Part shown: positions 49,344 through 57,511 of the stretch, piece by piece
Layout: each line of letters opens with the position of its first letter
How positions within the stretch are numbered: the stretch's first letter is position 1
Assembly (NCBI RefSeq): GCF_010548305.1
Contig: NZ_JAAGLV010000013.1
Span: forward strand, 1 to 64,000
From: Streptomyces sp. SID13031
GTDB lineage: Bacteria > Actinomycetota > Actinomycetes > Propionibacteriales > Kribbellaceae
Reading direction: 5' to 3'
Length of the DNA: 64,000 nucleotides
Position numbers and translations under genes: made by a program
The notes under the pieces: generated by a model
Seen by the model: the letters and a program-made list of their open reading frames with translations, nothing else
Database searches by the model: none
Told to the model about the DNA's origin: nothing

Positions 49344-49439
49344 GGCGTCTTGGGTAGGGCAGTGCGGACGGGAGGCTGGGGGTGTCGGGGGTGGGTGGCA
49401 TGCTCTGCGGGGTAGAGGGTTGAGCGGTTGGGGGGTGTG

Positions 49440-50753
49440 GTGGCGGGACTGGATGTGGAGCAGGTGCTGGCGATGGCGCCGGATGCTGCCTCGGCCAAGG
49501 CTGCCCAGGGGCTGGCTCGGGTGGAGAAGTGGTCCGGGACCGGCAGTTCCGAGCGGGCGCTCTGGGGGTTGTGCCAGGGCAGCGGCAAGAAGCCGTATCA
49601 GGCTGTGGTCGACCTGAGTGGGCCCGCGTTCAAGTGCTCCTGCCCCAGCCGGAAGTTTCCGTGCAAGCACGCGCTCGGGCTGATGTTGTTGGCGGCCAAG
49701 GACCAGCTTGCGGCGGGTACTGAGCCGGCGTGGGCGTCCGAGTGGTTGGAGGAGCGGGCCACGCGGGCTGAGAAGTCGACCGAGCGGGCTGAGAAGAAGC
49801 CGGGTGAGGTTGCTGATCCGTTGGCGGCTCAGCAGCGGGTGCTGCGCCGGGCTGAACGGGTCTCGAGTGGGATGGCCGAGCTGGAGAGCTGGCTCGACGA
49901 CCAGGTACGCCGTGGGCTCGGCGGCTTCGAGCAGCGTGGGTACTCCGAGCTGAGCCGTCTCGCCGCGCGCATGGTCGATGCCCAGGCCCCTGGAGTCGCA
50001 GGCGCCGTACGCCGAGCCGCCGCTGTCGTCGGCCGTGGCCACGGCTGGCCGGGCGAGCTCCTGGAGGAGCTGTCCCTCATCCACCTGATCGTCTCGGCCC
50101 ACGCGAGACTGGGCGAGCTTCCACCGAGCTTGGCCGACACCGTGCAGTCGCGGATCGGCTGGACCGTCGAAACCGCCCGCGTACTGGCCGAAGGCGAGAA
50201 GGTCGAAGACGACTGGCTGGTGCTCGGCCGCGTGATCGAGCCGGACGACCACCTGACCGTACGACGCCTCTGGCTGCGCGGCTCCAGCACCGGACGCCTG
50301 GCCCTCATCCTCAACTTCGCCGCCGGCGGCCGTCAGCTAGACCCACTCCCCGCCCGCCCCGGCGAGCTAGTCCCAGCAGTGCTCTCGTACTACCCAGGCG
50401 TACTTCCCATGCGAGCCCTGCTGACCCAAACAGCGCCACGCCTCCCCGCCCCATGCCCAGGAGGCCTCACCACCAAGCAGGCCTTAGCCTCGTACGTCGA
50501 ATCGCTCGCGGCCGACCCCTGGAACGAGCGCTGGCCCCTTGTCCTCGCAGACGTCCGCCCAACCCCCAACGGCGAGAACTGGGCCTTGGTAGACGACAGT
50601 GGCGACGCCCTGGAAGTCCTCCCCGGCGTAGACCTCTGGAAGCTCCTCGCCGTCTCCGCAGGCGACCCGGTGACAGTGGCAGGCGAGTGGAACCGAGCAG
50701 GCTTCAAGCCGATGACGTGCTGGGACGGCGATCGGCCGGTGATCCTGTCATGA
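49440..50753 (+). CDS. SWIM zinc-finger family protein
   Basis: A 437-residue protein. The SWIM motif is FKCSCPSRKFPCKHALGLML, with C-x-C-x7-C-x-H near residues 66-77; it binds DNA or proteins. The middle is a helical domain (SELSRLAARMVDAQAPGVAG, LEELSLIHLIVSAHARLGEL) and the end a beta-rich region (LALILNFAAGGRQLDPLPAR, WALVDDSGDALEVLPGVDLW). I recall this architecture from gene clusters with MoxR and VWA proteins. GTG at 49440 fits conserved MAGLDVEQV; TTG at 49428 is possible. It overlaps the next gene by ATGA. Confidence 0.8.
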   Translation: MAGLDVEQVLAMAPDAASAKAAQGLARVEKWSGTGSSERALWGLCQGSGKKPYQAVVDLSGPAFKCSCPSRKFPCKHALGLMLLAAKDQLAAGTEPAWASEWLEERATRAEKSTERAEKKPGEVADPLAAQQRVLRRAERVSSGMAELESWLDDQVRRGLGGFEQRGYSELSRLAARMVDAQAPGVAGAVRRAAAVVGRGHGWPGELLEELSLIHLIVSAHARLGELPPSLADTVQSRIGWTVETARVLAEGEKVEDDWLVLGRVIEPDDHLTVRRLWLRGSSTGRLALILNFAAGGRQLDPLPARPGELVPAVLSYYPGVLPMRALLTQTAPRLPAPCPGGLTTKQALASYVESLAADPWNERWPLVLADVRPTPNGENWALVDDSGDALEVLPGVDLWKLLAVSAGDPVTVAGEWNRAGFKPMTCWDGDRPVILS

Positions 50754-52168
50754 GGGGCTGGGACGGCCTGGTCAGCTCCGCGCTGCTCGGCACCGAGCGG
50801 CGACCACCGCGCTTCGAGGAACTGCCACCGAAGATCCAGGAGCAACTCGGCGAAGGCGGCCTCCTCGACGCGGCCGCCTTGGCAACCCTCTACAAACGAG
50901 CCGGCCGCACACCACTCGAGGGCCTCGCGCCCTTACCAGCAGCGCAAGGCGAGGACCAGCCACTCCCGAGACCTGCCGCGATCCGCAGGCTCACAGCGAT
51001 GCTCAGTGGTTTCCAGACCACGGCACTGGGCGAGTGGCTCCGCGCAGCCGACGCCAAGGGCTGGGGCGTTCCGCCGGAGCAGCTCCCCGCCTTGGCCGAC
51101 TACGCGCGCGGCCGAGCTGAGTACAGGCCGTTGGTCGTGAAGGCCGCGGGGCGGCGGGCGAGCTGGCTGGCGGATCTCAATCCGGACTGGCGATTCCTCC
51201 ACGAAGCCGTTGTCGAGGGCAACGAGCATTGGACGCACGGCAACCCGACCCAGCGCCGGAGCTGGCTACGTGCTCGCCGCCAGAGCGACCCGACAAAAGC
51301 GCTGGAGGCGCTGGAAGAAGTCTGGCCGAGCGAACCGGCCGCAGTCCGGCTCGACTTCCTGGGCCTACTGGCCGACGGCCTGCCCGCCGGGCTCGGCGAC
51401 GCAGCGCCCTCGGCCGACGAAGTCTTCCTCGAGCGAGCGCTCGACGACCGCTCCAAGGAAGTCCGGCGAGCAGCCGCGGCTCTCCTCCAACGCATTCCTG
51501 GGTCCCAGTACGGCGAACGCATGGCGCAGCGGGTCTGGTCGCAGCTCACCGTCAGCCAAGGCGTTCTCGTCGTCGAGCTGCCGACCGGCGTCACCACAGC
51601 GATGGAGCGTGATGGCGTCGACTCGCAGCCGAAAGAGGGAATCGGCAAGCGGGCTTGGTGGTTCCAGCAACTGCTGGCCGCTGCTCCGCTGGCCACCTCC
51701 GAGCTCGACTACCTCCAGCTCAAGGTCGAAGGCTGCTCGCCCGAGGTGCTTCAAGTGGCCTGGGCGCAGGCGGCGATCCGCGAACAAGAGGCCGACTGGG
51801 CGCGTGCCCTGCTGCTGTCGAATGCCCGGACCGGTGGAAGAGTCGCCGAGCTGCTGCGGATCCTGCCGCCCGACGAATGGGTGCCGGCCATCGAGCTGCT
51901 CCGCGTCCGCGTCGACATCGCCGACCTGGTCGGCGGCTTGCCGGTGCCGTGGCCGGCGACGCTGGGCACCGCGGTCCTCGACCAGCTGGCCAAGTCCGGC
52001 AGCGACCGCAGGCACGCGCGTCTCGCGAGTATCGCCGCGCGCGCAGTACCGGCCGAAGTGCTGGACCATCCGATCACCCGCGAGCCGACCGGTGAGGAAG
52101 ACACCTGGCGGCGGCGTCTTGTCGAGACCTTGATCTTCCGTCGTGAGATGTACGAGGAGCTGTCATGA
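50750..52168 (+). CDS. DUF5691 family protein
   Basis: A 472-residue protein beginning WDGLVSSALLGTERRPPRFE, a characteristic opening of DUF5691. The rest is mostly alpha-helical with repeats reminiscent of ARM/HEAT units (ALDDRSKEVRRAAAALLQRI, GGRVAELLRILPPDEWVPAI). No catalytic motif is evident. It probably works as an adaptor or scaffold for the AAA+ ATPase. The start overlaps the SWIM stop (ATGA at 50750) and its stop overlaps the next start by ATGA. Confidence 0.8.
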   Translation: MRGWDGLVSSALLGTERRPPRFEELPPKIQEQLGEGGLLDAAALATLYKRAGRTPLEGLAPLPAAQGEDQPLPRPAAIRRLTAMLSGFQTTALGEWLRAADAKGWGVPPEQLPALADYARGRAEYRPLVVKAAGRRASWLADLNPDWRFLHEAVVEGNEHWTHGNPTQRRSWLRARRQSDPTKALEALEEVWPSEPAAVRLDFLGLLADGLPAGLGDAAPSADEVFLERALDDRSKEVRRAAAALLQRIPGSQYGERMAQRVWSQLTVSQGVLVVELPTGVTTAMERDGVDSQPKEGIGKRAWWFQQLLAAAPLATSELDYLQLKVEGCSPEVLQVAWAQAAIREQEADWARALLLSNARTGGRVAELLRILPPDEWVPAIELLRVRVDIADLVGGLPVPWPATLGTAVLDQLAKSGSDRRHARLASIAARAVPAEVLDHPITREPTGEEDTWRRRLVETLIFRREMYEELS

Positions 52169-53253
52169 CCGTGACCCCTGAGATAATGCGCCCGCACGCC
52201 GAGGACGAGTACGCCGAGGAGCTGGCCGCGCTGGCAGCCACCGACGACCGGCCGCGCCCGCCTGCGTGGAAGCTGTCGCCCGCGGCCGTGGTCACCTACC
52301 TGCTGGGCGGCAAGGCCGGCGACCTGGAGATCACTCCCAAGTACGTCGGTCCGCGCCGGCTGGTCGAGGTCGCGGTCGCCACCCTCGCGACGGATCGCGC
52401 GCTGCTGCTGCTCGGCGTACCGGGTACTGCGAAGACGTGGGTCAGTGAGCATCTGGCCGCGGCGATCAGTGGTGACTCGACGCTGCTCGTGCAGGGCACG
52501 GCGGGTACGGCCGAGGAGTCGATCCGGTACGGCTGGAACTACGCGCAGTTGATTGCCCAGGGCCCCAGTGAGGCAGCGCTGGTGCCGAGTCCGGTGTTCC
52601 GCGCGATGGCCGGCGCGAAGATCGCCCGGATCGAGGAGCTGACCCGGATGCCGTCCGACGTGCAGGACGCGCTGATCACGATCCTGTCCGAGAAGTCGCT
52701 GCCGATCTCCGAGCTGGGCACGGAAGTCCAGGCCCGCAAGGGGTTCAACGTCATTGCCACCGCCAACGATCGTGACAAGGGCGTCAACGAGCTGTCGAGC
52801 GCGCTGCGGCGCCGGTTCAACACCGTCGTACTTCCGCTGCCGGACAACGCCGAGGACGAGGTCGCGATCGTCTCCCGCCGGGTCGCGCAGCTCGGGTCGT
52901 CGCTCGAGCTGCCGCAGCAGGACGATGCGCTGGAGGAGATCCGCCGCGTCGTGACCGTCTTCCGCGAGCTGAGGTCCGGGCGAACCGAAGACGGCCGTAC
53001 TGCGGTCAAGTCGCCCTCGGCCACCCTCTCGACGGCCGAAGCGATCAGCGTGGTCACCGGTGGACTTGCACTGGCGGCGCACTTCGGCGACGGCGTACTG
53101 CGGTCCAATGATGTTGCCGGCGGCATCCTCGGAGCCGTGGTGAAGGACCCGTCGGCGGATCGCGTGGTCTGGTCGGAGTACCTGGAGACCGTGGTGCGCG
53201 AGCGCGAGGGCTGGGCCGATTTCTACCGGGCCTGCCGGGATATCTCCGGATGA
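52165..53253 (+). CDS. MoxR-type AAA+ ATPase
   Basis: A 362-residue MoxR-family ATPase. Walker A is LLGVPGTAKTWVSEHLAAAI (residues about 84-92). The Walker B position reads AGAKIARIEELTRMPSDVQD, with IEE rather than the usual DE pair. Sensor 1 is GFNVIATANDRDKGVNELSS and the arginine finger SSALRRRFNTVVLPLPDNAE. MoxR proteins remodel or insert cofactors into partners together with VWA proteins; here the VWA partner is two genes downstream. ATGA overlap on both sides. Confidence 0.88.
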   Translation: MTVTPEIMRPHAEDEYAEELAALAATDDRPRPPAWKLSPAAVVTYLLGGKAGDLEITPKYVGPRRLVEVAVATLATDRALLLLGVPGTAKTWVSEHLAAAISGDSTLLVQGTAGTAEESIRYGWNYAQLIAQGPSEAALVPSPVFRAMAGAKIARIEELTRMPSDVQDALITILSEKSLPISELGTEVQARKGFNVIATANDRDKGVNELSSALRRRFNTVVLPLPDNAEDEVAIVSRRVAQLGSSLELPQQDDALEEIRRVVTVFRELRSGRTEDGRTAVKSPSATLSTAEAISVVTGGLALAAHFGDGVLRSNDVAGGILGAVVKDPSADRVVWSEYLETVVREREGWADFYRACRDISG

Positions 53254-55487
53254 CCATGCAATACCTTCCCCGCCCCACCGCCCCGGTCCAATACCTTCCC
53301 CGCCCCACCGCCCCGGTCCACCTCTTCGGCATCAGGCACCACGGCCCCGGGTCCGCCCGGGCGCTCGCGGCCGCCCTGGCGGACCTAAGGCCCGACATCG
53401 TGCTGATCGAGGGACCGCCCGAGGCTGACAAGGTGATCGAGCTGGCCGCCTCGGCGGAGATGGTCCCGCCGGTCGCGTTGCTGGCCTACGCGGCCGACGA
53501 CTCCACCAGGGCAGCGTTCTGGCCGTTCGCGGTGTTCAGCCCGGAGTGGCAGGCGATCCGGCACGCGCTGGCGGCCGGCGTACCGGTGCGGTTCTGCGAT
53601 CTGCCGGCGGCCTATCAGTTCGGCAGCTCGGAGAAGGCGGATCGCCGGGGAGCGTCGATGGATCCCTTGGCGACGCTGGCCGCGGCGGGTGGGTATGACG
53701 ATCCCGAGCGCTGGTGGGATGACGTGATCGAGCACCGGCGGGACGGCGCCGAGCCGTTCACCGTGATCGCCGAGGCGATGGGCGAGCTGCGGCGCGGCGA
53801 GGAGGCGACCGGGCGGGAGGCCCAGCGCGAGGCGTACATGCGGACGACCTTGCGCAAGGCAATCAAAGAGGGCTTCGAGCGGATCGCCGTCGTCTGCGGC
53901 GCCTGGCATGTCCCTGCGCTGCAAGCTCCGTTGCCACCGGCAACTCATGATCAGCGGATCCTGAAAGGCCTGCCGAAGCGCAAGGTCGCTTGTACCTGGG
54001 TGCCCTGGACGCACGGCCGGTTGGCGACCGCGAGCGGGTACGGCGCGGGCGTCACTTCGCCTGGCTGGTACCACCACTTGTTCACCGCGCCCGACCAGAT
54101 CACCACGCGCTGGCTCACGAAGGTCGCTCAGGTACTGCGGGCCGAGGATCTCCCGGTGTCGAGTGCTCACGTCATCGAGGCCGTACGCTTGGCTGAAGCC
54201 CTTGCTGTGTTGAGAGAACGGCCGCTCGCCGGATTGAGCGAGGTCACCGAGGCGACGCGAGCGGTGATGTGTGGCGGCAACGACGTCTTGCTCAACCTGG
54301 TCACGCGCGAGGCCGTGGTCGGCGAGTTGCTGGGCGCAGTACCGGCTGAGACCCCGCAAGCACCCGTTGCCGCTGACCTGGCTGCACAGGCGAGGCGGTT
54401 GCGGCTGAAGCGGGACGCTGCCGAGCGAGTGGTCGAGCTCGACCTGCGGAAGCCGAACGATCTGGAGAAGTCGCGGCTGCTGCATCGGCTCAGGATCCTC
54501 GGCATCGACTGGGGCGTGCCGACCGCCGATGAGCGCCGGAACCAGGGCACCTTCCGGGAGAGCTGGAAGCTGGCCTGGGATCCTGGCCTGGAGGTCGACC
54601 TGGTTGCCGCGGGCGCCCATGGGACCACGGTGCTCGGTGCTGCGACGACCACAATGCTCAAGGCTGCCGAGGACTCGGCCACCCTGGCTGAGGTGACCTC
54701 GGCCCTGGAGCGATCGCTGCTGGCCGACCTCGCTGAGGCATTGCCGACGCTGCTGCAAGGCGTCGATACCCGGGCCGCGAAGGACGCCGACGTCGGTCAC
54801 CTGATGGCCGCGCTACCCGCCCTCGCGCGATCCGCCCGGTACGGCGATGTCCGCGGCTCGTCCGCCGAAGGGCTCGGCCGGGTCGCCGGGCGGATGGTTT
54901 CGCGGGCGTGCGCAGGGCTGGGCAGAACCGTGCACGGCCTCGACCCGGAGGCCGCCGCTTCGGTGCTGGAACTCATTGATGGCGTGCAGGACGCGACGGC
55001 GCTGCTCGACGAGTCTGTCCGGATCGAGTGGCTGACAACCCTTCAGGGGTTGAGCGATCGCTCGTCGGTGCCGCCTTTGATCGCCGGCCGCCTGACCCGA
55101 TTGATGCTCGACACCTCGCGGCTGGAGGCTGTCGAGGTCGCGTTGCGGCTGGGGCGAGCCCTGTCTCCCGGTACGCCGACCGCCAATGCCGCCGGGTATG
55201 TCGAAGGCTTTCTCGCCGGCGGCGGCCTGCTGCTGGTGCATGACGAGCGGCTCCTCGCGTTGGTCGACACGTGGCTGGCCGCGATCCCCGACGAAGCGTT
55301 CCTGGAGGCGCTGCCCTTGCTCCGCCGTACTTTCGGGACCTTCGCCTCGCCCGAGCGCCGCTCGATCGGCGACCGCGCCCGGGCGCTGGGCGATCCCGCT
55401 GCCGCTGTCATTGCCGACGACAACGAGCTCGATTCGTTGCTCGCGGCATCAGTCCTGCCCGTCGTCAAACAATTGCTGGGGGTGTGA
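53250..55487 (+). CDS. DUF5682 family protein (TraB/TIKI-like N-terminal motifs)
   Basis: A 745-residue protein. Residues about 24-230 carry HLFGIRHHGPGSARALAAAL, DIVLIEGPPEADKVIELAAS and RIAVVCGAWHVPALQAPLPP; the HxxH-Glu-GxxH order recalls the TraB/PrgY/TIKI putative metalloprotease fold, which is my inference. The remainder is helical (SSAHVIEAVRLAEALAVLRE, VRGSSAEGLGRVAGRMVSRA). The N-terminus holds a perfect tandem repeat, so QYLPRPTAPV occurs twice. ATGA overlap with the MoxR gene. Role in the operon is unknown. Confidence 0.82.
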   Translation: MTMQYLPRPTAPVQYLPRPTAPVHLFGIRHHGPGSARALAAALADLRPDIVLIEGPPEADKVIELAASAEMVPPVALLAYAADDSTRAAFWPFAVFSPEWQAIRHALAAGVPVRFCDLPAAYQFGSSEKADRRGASMDPLATLAAAGGYDDPERWWDDVIEHRRDGAEPFTVIAEAMGELRRGEEATGREAQREAYMRTTLRKAIKEGFERIAVVCGAWHVPALQAPLPPATHDQRILKGLPKRKVACTWVPWTHGRLATASGYGAGVTSPGWYHHLFTAPDQITTRWLTKVAQVLRAEDLPVSSAHVIEAVRLAEALAVLRERPLAGLSEVTEATRAVMCGGNDVLLNLVTREAVVGELLGAVPAETPQAPVAADLAAQARRLRLKRDAAERVVELDLRKPNDLEKSRLLHRLRILGIDWGVPTADERRNQGTFRESWKLAWDPGLEVDLVAAGAHGTTVLGAATTTMLKAAEDSATLAEVTSALERSLLADLAEALPTLLQGVDTRAAKDADVGHLMAALPALARSARYGDVRGSSAEGLGRVAGRMVSRACAGLGRTVHGLDPEAAASVLELIDGVQDATALLDESVRIEWLTTLQGLSDRSSVPPLIAGRLTRLMLDTSRLEAVEVALRLGRALSPGTPTANAAGYVEGFLAGGGLLLVHDERLLALVDTWLAAIPDEAFLEALPLLRRTFGTFASPERRSIGDRARALGDPAAAVIADDNELDSLLAASVLPVVKQLLGV
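53261..53320 (+). repeat. Two perfect 30-bp tandem repeats in the DUF5682 gene
   Basis: The 30-bp unit beginning ATACCTTCCCCGCCCCACCG is present at 53261-53290 and exactly again at 53291-53320. It encodes YLPRPTAPV(Q/H) twice and leaves the frame intact. It may be a recent slippage product. Confidence 0.9.
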
Positions 55488-55489
55488 CG

Positions 55490-56644
55490 ATGCCGGACGA
55501 CGAACGGATGCGGCGCTGGCGGATGGTGCTCGGCAGCGAGGCCGACCCCGAGACCGGCTCGACACTGTCCGCCGCCGACCGCTCGGTCGATGCGGCCCTG
55601 GCAGCCCTGTACGACGCCGAGCGCGGCGAGCCCGGTACGAAACGGTCAGCCGGGCTGGGCTCATCAGCGCCAAGAGTCGCGCGCTGGCTGGGGGACATCC
55701 GGCAGTACTTCCCGAGCACCGTCGTCCAGGTGATGCAGCGCGACGCGGTCGAGCGGCTGGGCATCACCCGGATGCTGATGGAGCCCGAGCTGCTCAACGC
55801 GGTCGAGCCCGACGTGCATCTGGTCAGCACGCTGCTTGCGCTCAACGAGGTCATGCCCGAGGAGACCAAGCAGACCGCTCGCGAGGTGGTCGGCCGAGTC
55901 GTCGCCGAGCTGGAAGCGCGCCTGGCCGAGCGCACCCGGGCGGCGGTGACGGGGGCGCTCGACCGCGCGGGCCGCACCGGTCGGCCGCGGCACTCGGACA
56001 TCGACTGGGATCGCACGATCCGCGCCAACCTGAAGCACTTCTCGCCCACCCTCGGCACGATCGTCCCGGATCGCCTGGTCGGCTATGCCCGGCGCAACCA
56101 CAGCGTCCAGCGGGACGTGGTACTGGCGATCGATCAGTCCGGGTCGATGGCCGAGTCCGTCGTCTACGCGAGCCTGTTCGGCGCGGTATTGGGCTCGATG
56201 CGCGCGTTGCGGACGAGCCTCGTCGTCTTCGACACGGCCGTCGTCGACCTGACCGACGAGCTGGACGACCCGGTGGACGTCCTGTTCGGCACGCAACTCG
56301 GCGGCGGCACCGACATCAACCGCGCCGTCGCGTACTGCGAACAGCTCATCGAGCGGCCGGCCGAGACGGTGATGGTGCTCATCAGCGATCTCTACGAAGG
56401 CGGCATCCGCGAGGAACTCCTGCGCCGGGCGCGCAACCTGGTCGAATCCGGCGTCCAGCTCATCGCGTTGCTCGCGCTGTCCGACTCGGGCACCCCGTCG
56501 TACGACGCCGAGAACGCCGCCGCCCTTGCCGACCTCGGCGTGCCCACCTTCGCCTGCACACCGGAACTGTTCCCCGACCTGATGGCGGCCGCGATCCGCC
56601 GCGACGACATCTCCGCCTGGGCGGCAGCGAACGTACTGGACTAG
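55490..56644 (+). CDS. VWA domain-containing protein (MoxR partner)
   Basis: A 384-residue protein. The N-terminal helical part (GDIRQYFPSTVVQVMQRDAV) precedes the VWA domain from about residue 205. The MIDAS is complete: DQSGSMAES (DxSxS), LGGGTDINRAV (Thr) and LISDLYEGGI (Asp). The MoxR/VWA combination is known from chaperone-like metal- or cofactor-insertion systems, and this pair completes such a module. Starts 2 nt after the DUF5682 stop and ends the five-gene transcript. Confidence 0.88.
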   Translation: MPDDERMRRWRMVLGSEADPETGSTLSAADRSVDAALAALYDAERGEPGTKRSAGLGSSAPRVARWLGDIRQYFPSTVVQVMQRDAVERLGITRMLMEPELLNAVEPDVHLVSTLLALNEVMPEETKQTAREVVGRVVAELEARLAERTRAAVTGALDRAGRTGRPRHSDIDWDRTIRANLKHFSPTLGTIVPDRLVGYARRNHSVQRDVVLAIDQSGSMAESVVYASLFGAVLGSMRALRTSLVVFDTAVVDLTDELDDPVDVLFGTQLGGGTDINRAVAYCEQLIERPAETVMVLISDLYEGGIREELLRRARNLVESGVQLIALLALSDSGTPSYDAENAAALADLGVPTFACTPELFPDLMAAAIRRDDISAWAAANVLD

Positions 56645-56665: not shown

Positions 56666-57511
56666 ATGCGGATCGTCACGATGAACGCCTTCTTGCCCGG
56701 CTACGCCAATATCGCCGGCTGGGCCGAGCAGAACGGCCATGAGATCGTGCTGGTGGTGACGCCGCCGGCCGGTGCGAGCGACCGGTACGACGCGGCCGCG
56801 AAACCGTTCGTGCTGGAGTTGCCGAGGACCGCGGATGTGCTGGTCACCGGCAAGCTCCGGACTGTGGCCGCGGCGGCGATCGCGGCGCTGGAGCCGGATC
56901 TGGTGATCTCGGCCGCGTTCCCCCGGCTGATCCCGGCGGAGATCCTGAAGATCCCGACGTACGGCGCGGTGAACCTGCATCCGTCGGCGCTGCCGGCCGG
57001 GCGCGGGCCCAATCCGGTCCGGCTGGTCTACGAAGGCGCGAGCACAGTCGGGGCGACGCTGCACCGGACCGAGGCCGAGTTCGACACCGGCGCGATCCTC
57101 AGCCAGCGCGAGCGGCCGCTACCGGCGGAGCTCAGCGGGCCGGCGATCTTCCAGGCCTGGCGCGAGATGCTGCGCGAAGTACTCGAAGAAGGCGCTGCGC
57201 GGGCGTTCGCGGGTGAGCCGGGGGCGCCGCAGGACCCGGCGGCGGCTTCGGAGGCGCCGATGTTCACGCCGGAGGAGGAGGTGCTCCGGCTGAGTGACCC
57301 TGGCGCGGTACTGGTCCGGAAGTCGGCGGCTCTGAACGTGCTCGAGGCCAGGGCCAGGGTGATCGTGGCCGGCATCAAGCAGCCGATCAGCCGGGTCGAG
57401 CTGGTGTCGGCGGGTGAGGGGTCGGCGCAGCCTGGCGAGATCGTCAAGTACCACACAGATGGCTGGACGGTCCGGTCCGGCGACGGCATCGTCCGGCTCT
57501 TCAGGGCATGA
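56666..57511 (+). CDS. Formyltransferase-fold enzyme (methionyl-tRNA formyltransferase-like)
   Basis: A 281-residue protein of the Fmt/GART fold. GYANIAGWAEQNGHEIVLVV, PDLVISAAFPRLIPAEILKI and GAVNLHPSALPAGRGPNPVR supply the N-H part of the catalytic triad; TEAEFDTGAILSQRERPLPA supplies the Asp. It is shorter and more diverged than housekeeping Fmt and lacks a clear tRNA-binding C-terminal domain, so it may formylate a sugar amine or amino acid derivative. Starts 21 nt after the VWA stop. Its last 11 bases overlap a small ORF on the other strand. Confidence 0.8.
   Translation: MRIVTMNAFLPGYANIAGWAEQNGHEIVLVVTPPAGASDRYDAAAKPFVLELPRTADVLVTGKLRTVAAAAIAALEPDLVISAAFPRLIPAEILKIPTYGAVNLHPSALPAGRGPNPVRLVYEGASTVGATLHRTEAEFDTGAILSQRERPLPAELSGPAIFQAWREMLREVLEEGAARAFAGEPGAPQDPAAASEAPMFTPEEEVLRLSDPGAVLVRKSAALNVLEARARVIVAGIKQPISRVELVSAGEGSAQPGEIVKYHTDGWTVRSGDGIVRLFRA

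Follow-up and report, generated by a model that had tools for sequence, protein, structure and literature searches.

Within a 64,000 nt stretch of contig NZ_JAAGLV010000013.1 from Streptomyces sp. SID13031 (the whole of which is termed the window here), five adjoining genes encode a SWIM zinc-finger protein, a DUF5691 protein, a MoxR AAA+ ATPase, a DUF5682 protein, and a VWA protein. These genes are one real, co-inherited unit, and sequence comparisons indicate that the set is a DUF5691-type variant of the uncharacterized yehLMPQ operon of E. coli. The N-terminal domain of the DUF5682 protein, the homologue of YehM, probably has a TIKI/TraB fold. Furthermore, we tentatively propose that DUF5682/YehM is an ATP-gated hydrolase of this fold, operating in a chromosomally inherited MoxR/VWA machine in which the SWIM and DUF5691 proteins would form a recognition arm. 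We place this proposal slightly below an even call. Neither DUF5682 nor DUF5691 was found mentioned in the literature searched, in which two papers name two or more of YehL, YehM, YehP, and YehQ.

The five genes are inherited together

The genes, and the two parts distinguished within the DUF5682 protein, are as follows.

49440-50753, + strand: SWIM zinc-finger protein, 437 amino acids, GTG start (Pfam SWIM, 1.3e-05)
50750-52168, + strand: DUF5691 protein, 472 amino acids (Pfam DUF5691, 1.1e-113)
52165-53253, + strand: MoxR AAA+ ATPase, YehL subfamily, 362 amino acids (Pfam AAA_5, 2.7e-37)
53250-55487, + strand: DUF5682 protein, YehM homologue, 745 amino acids (Pfam DUF5682, 8.8e-270)
53316-54029, + strand: alpha/beta domain at the N terminus of DUF5682 (residues ~23-260), for which motif columns, profile, and fold match lead us to propose a TIKI/TraB-fold hydrolase
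54537-55487, + strand: helical C-terminal portion of DUF5682 (residue ~430 onwards), a likely scaffold judging by the secondary structure of the model
55490-56644, + strand: VWA protein, CoxE type, YehP homologue, 384 amino acids (Pfam VWA_CoxE, 1.5e-54, 185 bits versus a cut-off of 26.4)

An alternative in-frame TTG start for the SWIM gene is possible at position 49428. The SWIM/DUF5691, DUF5691/MoxR, and MoxR/DUF5682 junctions are ATGA overlaps and the VWA gene starts 2 nt past the DUF5682 stop codon, as described in an initial annotation made from the window alone, whose coordinates and junctions for the five-gene row were correct. NCBIfam gave no match above cut-off for any of the five proteins.

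Our comparison sample consists of 116 DUF5682 loci: the window, 30 phylum stretches, five of the 36 plasmid records with a match (L002, L003, and L036-L038; L001, L034, and L035 were examined separately), and 80 contig loci. The contig loci are the best 80 of at least 587 relatives, found via a GxRHH pattern, and are biased towards close relatives. A phylum survey covered 296 evenly drawn genomes.

The complete five-gene set is present in 92 of the 116 loci, and the remaining 24 include early contig ends, loci where one part escaped detection, and other operon types. Where contig loci have full flanks, all five genes lie within 7.0-9.0 kb in 61 of 62 cases, a flattering figure given that these loci are close relatives. 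The exception (L111) has its SWIM gene at the extreme end of the stretch, and DUF5691 may lie beyond. In the phylum survey, DUF5691 scored above cut-off in 18 genomes, and in 18 of 18 it lies within ~3.4 kb of a DUF5682 match; three further genomes gave weak, sub-cut-off DUF5691 matches and no DUF5682 match. DUF5682 itself was found in 21 of the 296 genomes, three of them without DUF5691 (two with other operon types, and one with a match on a 4.4-kb contig). The initial annotation had called for a survey of gene neighborhoods, and these counts (61/62 and 18/18) answer it: the five genes are not regularly found apart. Their grouping is more than chance.

The layout SWIM>DUF5691>MoxR>DUF5682>VWA occurs in 57 of the 116 loci and in one further locus with VWA in pieces. 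A divergent layout, SWIM-DUF5691 versus MoxR-DUF5682-VWA, accounts for 20 loci (12 named, 10 of those Streptomyces). SWIM=DUF5691 fusions are present in 14 loci and DUF5682=VWA fusions in six, the latter within a second operon type; leftover layouts are partial, cut by contig ends, or belong to other operon types. Possible overlapping start/stop junctions, listed in gene order, number 45/93, 51/94, 54/112, and 27/113 pairs, a rough count that leans towards overlaps in taking the start nearest to the overlap and whose totals include fused and divergent pairs. From the gene order and the fusions, the five products probably act together.

All five genes are found in Actinomycetota, Cyanobacteriota, Planctomycetota, Bacteroidota, Pseudomonadota, and Deinococcota, and four of the five parts were detected at a Fusobacterium locus. 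The closest DUF5682 relatives among the matches listed are six Kribbella loci with 85-87% identity, which marks the genome as Kribbella-like. Every one of the genus's 38 genomes carries DUF5682, the one gene of the five covered by this count, and 37 have a single copy; a family-level search comprised the same 38 genomes.

Distance correlations among the five proteins range from 0.63 to 0.91 (92 loci), but are uncorrected for species relatedness and are not counted as evidence. Clustering of flanking sequences, conducted on raw open frames of which many are spurious, established no further constant partner. The largest flank cluster (22 loci) is restricted to Streptomyces-like loci, and an MFS-transporter cluster is common to nine. 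An apparent second SWIM gene in many loci was rejected: the untrimmed SWIM profile ran into DUF5691 through fused proteins, and the profile was trimmed before the layouts and the 61/62 count were obtained.

The set is a variant of the yehLMPQ operon

The E. coli K-12 gene order is yehI (DUF4132)-yehK-yehL (MoxR)-yehM (DUF5682)-yehP (VWA)-yehQ (SWIM). The window MoxR protein shares 41% identity over 358 amino acids with E. coli YehL (E = 2e-81), versus a match at E = 0.22 to the first 364 residues of RavA. Similarly, the VWA protein is 39% identical to YehP (358 columns, E = 2e-82), and the DUF5682 protein is 29% identical to YehM (580 columns, E = 8e-41). The SWIM protein resembles YehQ around the finger only (E = 0.008), and homology beyond the finger was not detected by sequence or profile comparison. 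DUF5691 has no meaningful match among the E. coli yeh proteins (best E = 2.2), and its relationship to DUF4132 (YehI) or YehQ was rejected on finding no hhalign signal (P = 0.7 and 0.71).

The YehL subfamily was reportedly first defined by Snider and Houry. YehL is already listed as a MoxR subfamily name (PMC3893208). The window MoxR protein belongs to this subfamily, being nearer to YehL than to RavA in sequence and linked to genes of the YehP, YehM, and SWIM types. The homology to YehL, YehM, and YehP, together with the SWIM finger in YehQ, leads us to classify the window set as a DUF5691-type variant of yehLMPQ. The initial annotation had described a five-part, uncharacterized ATPase machine. 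A co-inherited, probably co-acting MoxR/VWA set is indeed present, but the description needs correction in that three of the parts are homologues of YehL, YehM, and YehP.

At a query coverage of at least 80%, yehLMPQ is present in 5155 of 5426 E. coli genomes. A genome-reduced strain without the yeh region exists (PMC10652928), and the region is thus widespread yet dispensable in E. coli.

A third operon type, represented by Streptomyces atratus (L034) and six more loci, contains MoxR, a DUF5682=VWA fusion, and an open reading frame with a CxCLLAPxCxH motif in seven of seven loci; Pfam picks up SWIM in this open reading frame, though under its cut-off, in two of three tested. In a fourth, diverged form (four loci), a motif scan revealed no SWIM motif. 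Since the E. coli, window, and fusion forms share them, MoxR, DUF5682, VWA, and a SWIM-like protein seem to be the recurring core, and DUF5691 and DUF4132 look like alternative extra parts.

Several individual loci add to this diversity. The gene directly before MoxR in the fusion-type operon of Streptomyces (L034, 1732-6654) encodes a 1640-amino acid protein with no Pfam match at E<=1; it lies near the position held by DUF4132 in the E. coli type. Genomes G023 and G161 (genus g4) carry three DUF5682 genes each, of the five-gene, DUF5682=VWA fusion, and diverged VWA-MoxR-DUF5682 types. A mobilizable Iodobacter plasmid (L035, 387-17791) carries a Yeh-type operon that includes two DUF4132 genes, along with insertion sequences, and a restriction-modification set follows directly downstream; its YehQ-like SWIM gene is annotated in two pieces.

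The N-terminal domain of DUF5682 resembles TIKI/TraB proteins

An alignment of 21 diverse DUF5682 members has as invariant residues R12 and H13, E37, R176, E177, and M180, G200, and H203, which from H13 on correspond in full-length numbering to H30, E54, R193, E194, M197, G217, and H220. We took this set to be a TIKI/TraB-like signature, an assumption that was tested afterwards. H30, E54, R193, E194, G217, and H220 are kept in 116 of 116 relatives from several phyla, including all 36 that were not found via the GxRHH pattern, and the glycine of the first motif is kept in 110. As defined from GumN proteins, PMC6254334, and superfamily background, the TIKI/TraB motif comprises two GxxH elements with a Glu after the first and an Arg before the second. 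The DUF5682 N-domain has this arrangement, with the His, Glu, Arg, and His columns intact in all 116 relatives.

A spaced motif expression matched every DUF5682 protein except L056 and L058 (114 of 116), versus 1 of 2784 other open reading frames and 4 of 2320 shuffled sequences. The median spacing in DUF5682 is 22 between the first His motif and the Glu, 155 from there to RE..M, and 19 to the second GxxH, with 113 of 116 fitting one expression. Corresponding GumN/TraB spacings are 24, 161-181, and 15-19 in six of eight proteins; one GumN protein did not fit the expression, and for YbaP the expression took another first GxxH than did the alignment. At the position of RE..M, GumN proteins carry R[DN]..[MW].

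The hhalign match between the DUF5682 N-domain and a TraB/GumN profile has P = 4.7e-4 over 30 columns at a probability of 32% (P = 5.7e-4 when repeated with another member set), whereas all 10 controls are at 0.094 or weaker and five controls on the same target at 0.1 or weaker. Sub-threshold Pfam matches among the 21 DUF5682 members include TraB in three and ChaN in two, and those found in five of 10 N-terminal pieces each span the region from RE..M to the second GxxH. A protein found alongside the TraB family (L149) was dropped, as its translation contains no GxxH motif.

The AlphaFold2 model of DUF5682 has a predicted local distance difference test score (pLDDT) of 86 and a predicted template modeling score of 0.79. 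A search of BFVD with this model yielded 457 matches at E<=10, of which just one, to a TraB family protein, reached E<=0.001 (9.8e-4, prob 1.00). For the N-domain, VIA-align ranked chain 7w5z_E best (176 residues, root-mean-square deviation (rmsd) 5.1); its Z of 9.4 is little above the stated background of the tool and is not used as main evidence. A TraB-family subunit has been described in ciliate complex IV (PMC10060162). ChaN and EreA structures are absent from the listed VIA-align rows, which excludes nothing, and PDB sequence searches for DUF5682 and for TraB/GumN proteins returned nothing useful and no name for 7w5z_E. The C-terminal part is helical in the model and its fold rows are mostly of solenoid type, suggesting that it is a likely scaffold.

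Several results weigh against these assignments. The TraB/GumN profile match is limited to 30-38 columns in the RE..M-GxxH region, with a probability of about 30%. Unrelated Pfam families match single members as well as TraB does (CBM46 at 0.0055 and DUF7464 at 0.011), so that what counts in the sub-threshold matches is the region they have in common. The EreA profile match is weak (P = 0.026) and a GumN-EreA positive control failed (0.2), and we have set this comparison aside as saying little. The superposition on the BFVD TraB protein is poor (TM-score by target 0.37, rmsd 12.5), and a Foldseek search of the model against PDB gave no match at E<=0.001. Finally, one TIKI endopeptidase depends on two His and two Glu residues along with a conserved Arg, and the first DUF5682 motif, GxRHH, is without the Glu of that 2His/2Glu set (PMC6254334).

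The low BFVD TM-score and the equal scores of unrelated Pfam families slightly lower our confidence, and we still regard a TIKI/TraB fold of the N-domain as probable to a good degree. Catalysis is not assured, given GxRHH without that Glu, and we rate the chances that the TIKI-like site is catalytic as evenly balanced. The predicted active-site residues are H30, E54, R193 (with E194/M197), and H220.

The other components retain their functional motifs

The Walker B motif of the window MoxR protein is IEE, and that of E. coli YehL is FEE. All 112 aligned MoxR relatives carry the two Walker B glutamates as well as the Lys of Walker A. IEE had been read correctly in the initial annotation, but its presentation as a departure from DE does not hold, as the residues are a family signature. 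The claim of a complete metal ion-dependent adhesion site (MIDAS) in the VWA protein proved right, with all motif residues present; among 113 aligned VWA relatives, the D/S/S of DxSxS is conserved in 111, the T in 107, and the last D in 113.

The SWIM finger CxC...CxH, CSCPSRKFPCKH, lies within residues 65-83. Its C, C, C, and H ligands are kept in 93, 93, 93, and 94 of 99 aligned rows, where the rest are gaps except for one. A model of a natural SWIM=DUF5691 fusion from Phytohabitans (L080; pLDDT 92.4) predicts for the SWIM protein a finger region, then helices, and a C-terminal region rich in beta structure. DUF5691 is mostly helical in this model, with HEAT/armadillo-like solenoid neighbors at middling Z values (7.7-9.2). 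DUF5691 is thus modeled as an alpha-solenoid, HEAT-like in shape, and we claim no relationship to its fold neighbors.

A proposed mechanism for an ATP-gated hydrolase

MoxR/VWA pairs mature or remodel client proteins. In the NorQD system, the pore of the ring takes up a finger of the VWA protein, and the active ring remodels a linker in NorD that metal insertion requires (PMC13036017). Furthermore, MIDAS residues of this system are needed for client activity (PMC9976466). By combining the NorQD mechanism with TIKI endopeptidase catalysis, and building on gene order, co-occurrence, fusions, YehL/YehM/YehP homology, and the DUF5682 motif, profile, and fold matches, we propose a mechanism whose steps beyond the domain assignments are inferred. 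The MoxR ring would hold the VWA protein within its pore in the way that NorQ holds NorD, and the VWA MIDAS would capture either a client or DUF5682 itself. ATP hydrolysis might then twist or pull the VWA linkage such that the TIKI site is opened or fed. Clients would be selected by the SWIM finger and the DUF5691 solenoid, and the TIKI site (H30, E54, R193, and H220) could then cut a peptide or ester bond. The biological role is probably housekeeping or stress-related, and not anti-phage. Two further points count against this scheme, namely that as a whole it is an extrapolation and that the evidence for contact among the five products consists of gene order and fusions.

A broader and distinctly more doubtful extension is that DUF5682/YehM represents a widespread class of ATP-gated hydrolases, wherein a MoxR ring acting via a VWA protein opens or feeds a TIKI-fold peptidase and the SWIM protein and solenoid choose substrates. 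If true, E. coli would all along have contained a machine for energy-dependent proteolysis or processing that is separate from Clp, Lon, FtsH, and the proteasome. MoxR/VWA remodeling is known from cofactor insertion and the assembly of complexes; an active TIKI site would link it to client hydrolysis, which would be a new mode for this ATPase class. With its likely fold and active site, DUF5682 makes the yeh operon, found in most E. coli genomes including K-12, a testable enzyme system in which four residues can be mutated, the ring blocked at Walker B, and the MIDAS broken.

Alternative roles for the MoxR/VWA set

The main rival to the ATP-gated hydrolase is metal or cofactor insertion, in which MoxR/VWA would remodel a metalloprotein in the manner of NorQD or CoxDE. 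The client would be the His/Glu site of DUF5682 or an unlinked enzyme, with SWIM and DUF5691 assisting. The window VWA protein is of the CoxE type, NorQD drives metal insertion (PMC13036017, PMC9976466), and the DUF5682 site is a plausible metal site. However, no metalloenzyme client was recognized among eight flanking window proteins (one without a Pfam match). Genes for the client enzymes of NorQD share its operon (PMC9976466), whereas the constant partners here are DUF5682, SWIM, and DUF5691. We consider this explanation possible but rather unlikely.

The TIKI-like domain might instead be a non-catalytic scaffold or bind a ligand such as heme, in which case the machine would only assemble or disassemble a complex. 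ChaN-type members are labeled heme-binding by their Pfam name, the Glu found in an active TIKI endopeptidase (PMC6254334) is missing from the first DUF5682 motif, and the TraB/GumN profile match is short and weak. Nevertheless, H, E, R, and H columns that are invariant in 116 of 116 relatives from several phyla go beyond the needs of a mere scaffold, and we judge this account unlikely. Both it and the defense system discussed below are less likely than hydrolysis or metal insertion.

The initial annotation also raised a possible role in defense, which the data do not favor. The set would then resemble the vWA-MoxR ternary conflict systems (Kaur et al., 2020), with the ring setting a threshold and the TIKI domain as effector. 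This would fit the observations that those systems are built around MoxR-vWA pairs (PMC7159879), that a toxin effector domain is among the other TIKI members (PMC6254334), and that the Iodobacter plasmid copy adjoins restriction-modification genes. But a PADLOC scan returned two weak ATPase matches only (about 0.006), none convincing, and 48 pattern matches in IMG/VR viral contigs included no confirmed relative. The five proteins have no VMAP, iSTAND, or beta-propeller Pfam match at E<=0.1, except for bpMoxR on the MoxR protein (23.0 bits, under the cut-off of 27). Patchy, mobile inheritance is typical of vWA-MoxR ternary conflict systems. DUF5682 is present in all 38 genomes of the genus, yet in 21 of 296 across the phylum. 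DUF5682 occurs genus-wide and 5155 of 5426 E. coli genomes carry yehLMPQ, which is unlike typical defense islands, and a DUF5682 match is present in only 36 of 72,556 plasmid records. Because of this wide conservation and rarity on plasmids, the defense reading is unsupported and we hold it to be improbable.

Flanking genes and copies in plasmid and phage records

The genes upstream of the five encode a lectin-domain protein and an MFS transporter. The downstream order is a formyltransferase-like gene, an MDMPI_N-domain gene, a gene whose protein has no Pfam match, a glycosyltransferase, a TetR regulator, and a luciferase-like enzyme. The formyltransferase-like gene (56666-57511, same strand) starts 21 nt past the VWA gene and could share its transcript. 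Pfam scans of the eight flanking window proteins recognized no defense gene among them, and sigma-70-type promoter and terminator scans of the locus returned nothing informative.

On Methylosinus trichosporium plasmid pOB3b3 (L038, 10160-11385), VWA is in three unannotated open-frame pieces with insertion sequences nearby, perhaps a decaying copy. A candidate phage-borne copy was set aside: the one matching phage record, obtained by a DNA search and a protein search for VWA plus DUF5682, looks like a misfiled bacterial contig. This record (MT835988.1, L187, 1-14207), labeled UNVERIFIED ‘Bacteriophage sp.’, contains MoxR-DUF5682-VWA near an MgsA-type ATPase, a polysaccharide deacetylase, DUF5717, and DUF5716, and looks gut bacterial.

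Comparison with known systems

The vWA-MoxR ternary systems (PMC7159879) share with the window set a MoxR protein, a VWA protein, and at least one further component. They differ in that the third part in the window is a TIKI-like DUF5682 rather than VMAP, iSTAND, or beta-propeller, and in the genus-wide presence of DUF5682; the main text of PMC7159879 does not mention TraB, EreA, Tiki, SWIM, YehL, or DUF5682.

RavA/ViaA and CoxD/CoxE, like NorQ/NorD, combine a MoxR ATPase that forms a ring with a VWA partner that has a MIDAS. This pairing, for which NorQ/NorD is described in PMC9976466 and PMC13036017, is common to the window set. In contrast, the window MoxR protein belongs to another subfamily and has further constant partners, and no linked metalloenzyme was recognized among the flanking proteins scanned.

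With the TIKI/TraB/GumN/ChaN/EreA superfamily, DUF5682 shares GxxH, an acidic residue, Arg, and a second GxxH in the same order and at similar spacing; the single BFVD fold match adds to this, though it superposes poorly, and sequence similarity is at the limit of detection. DUF5682 differs in its extended helical C-terminal part, and most of the loci examined place it with a MoxR/VWA pair.

The closest counterpart is the E. coli yeh group, with MoxR, DUF5682, and VWA homologues in identical order, a SWIM protein, the EE Walker B (FEE in YehL), and the YehM motif set. However, the E. coli group has DUF4132 (YehI) and no detected DUF5691, whereas the window set carries DUF5691 instead, and SWIM is last in E. 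coli and first in the window. The system is therefore already half-known as the yeh operon, and what is new is the TIKI/TraB assignment of DUF5682/YehM and the alternation of DUF5691 and DUF4132.

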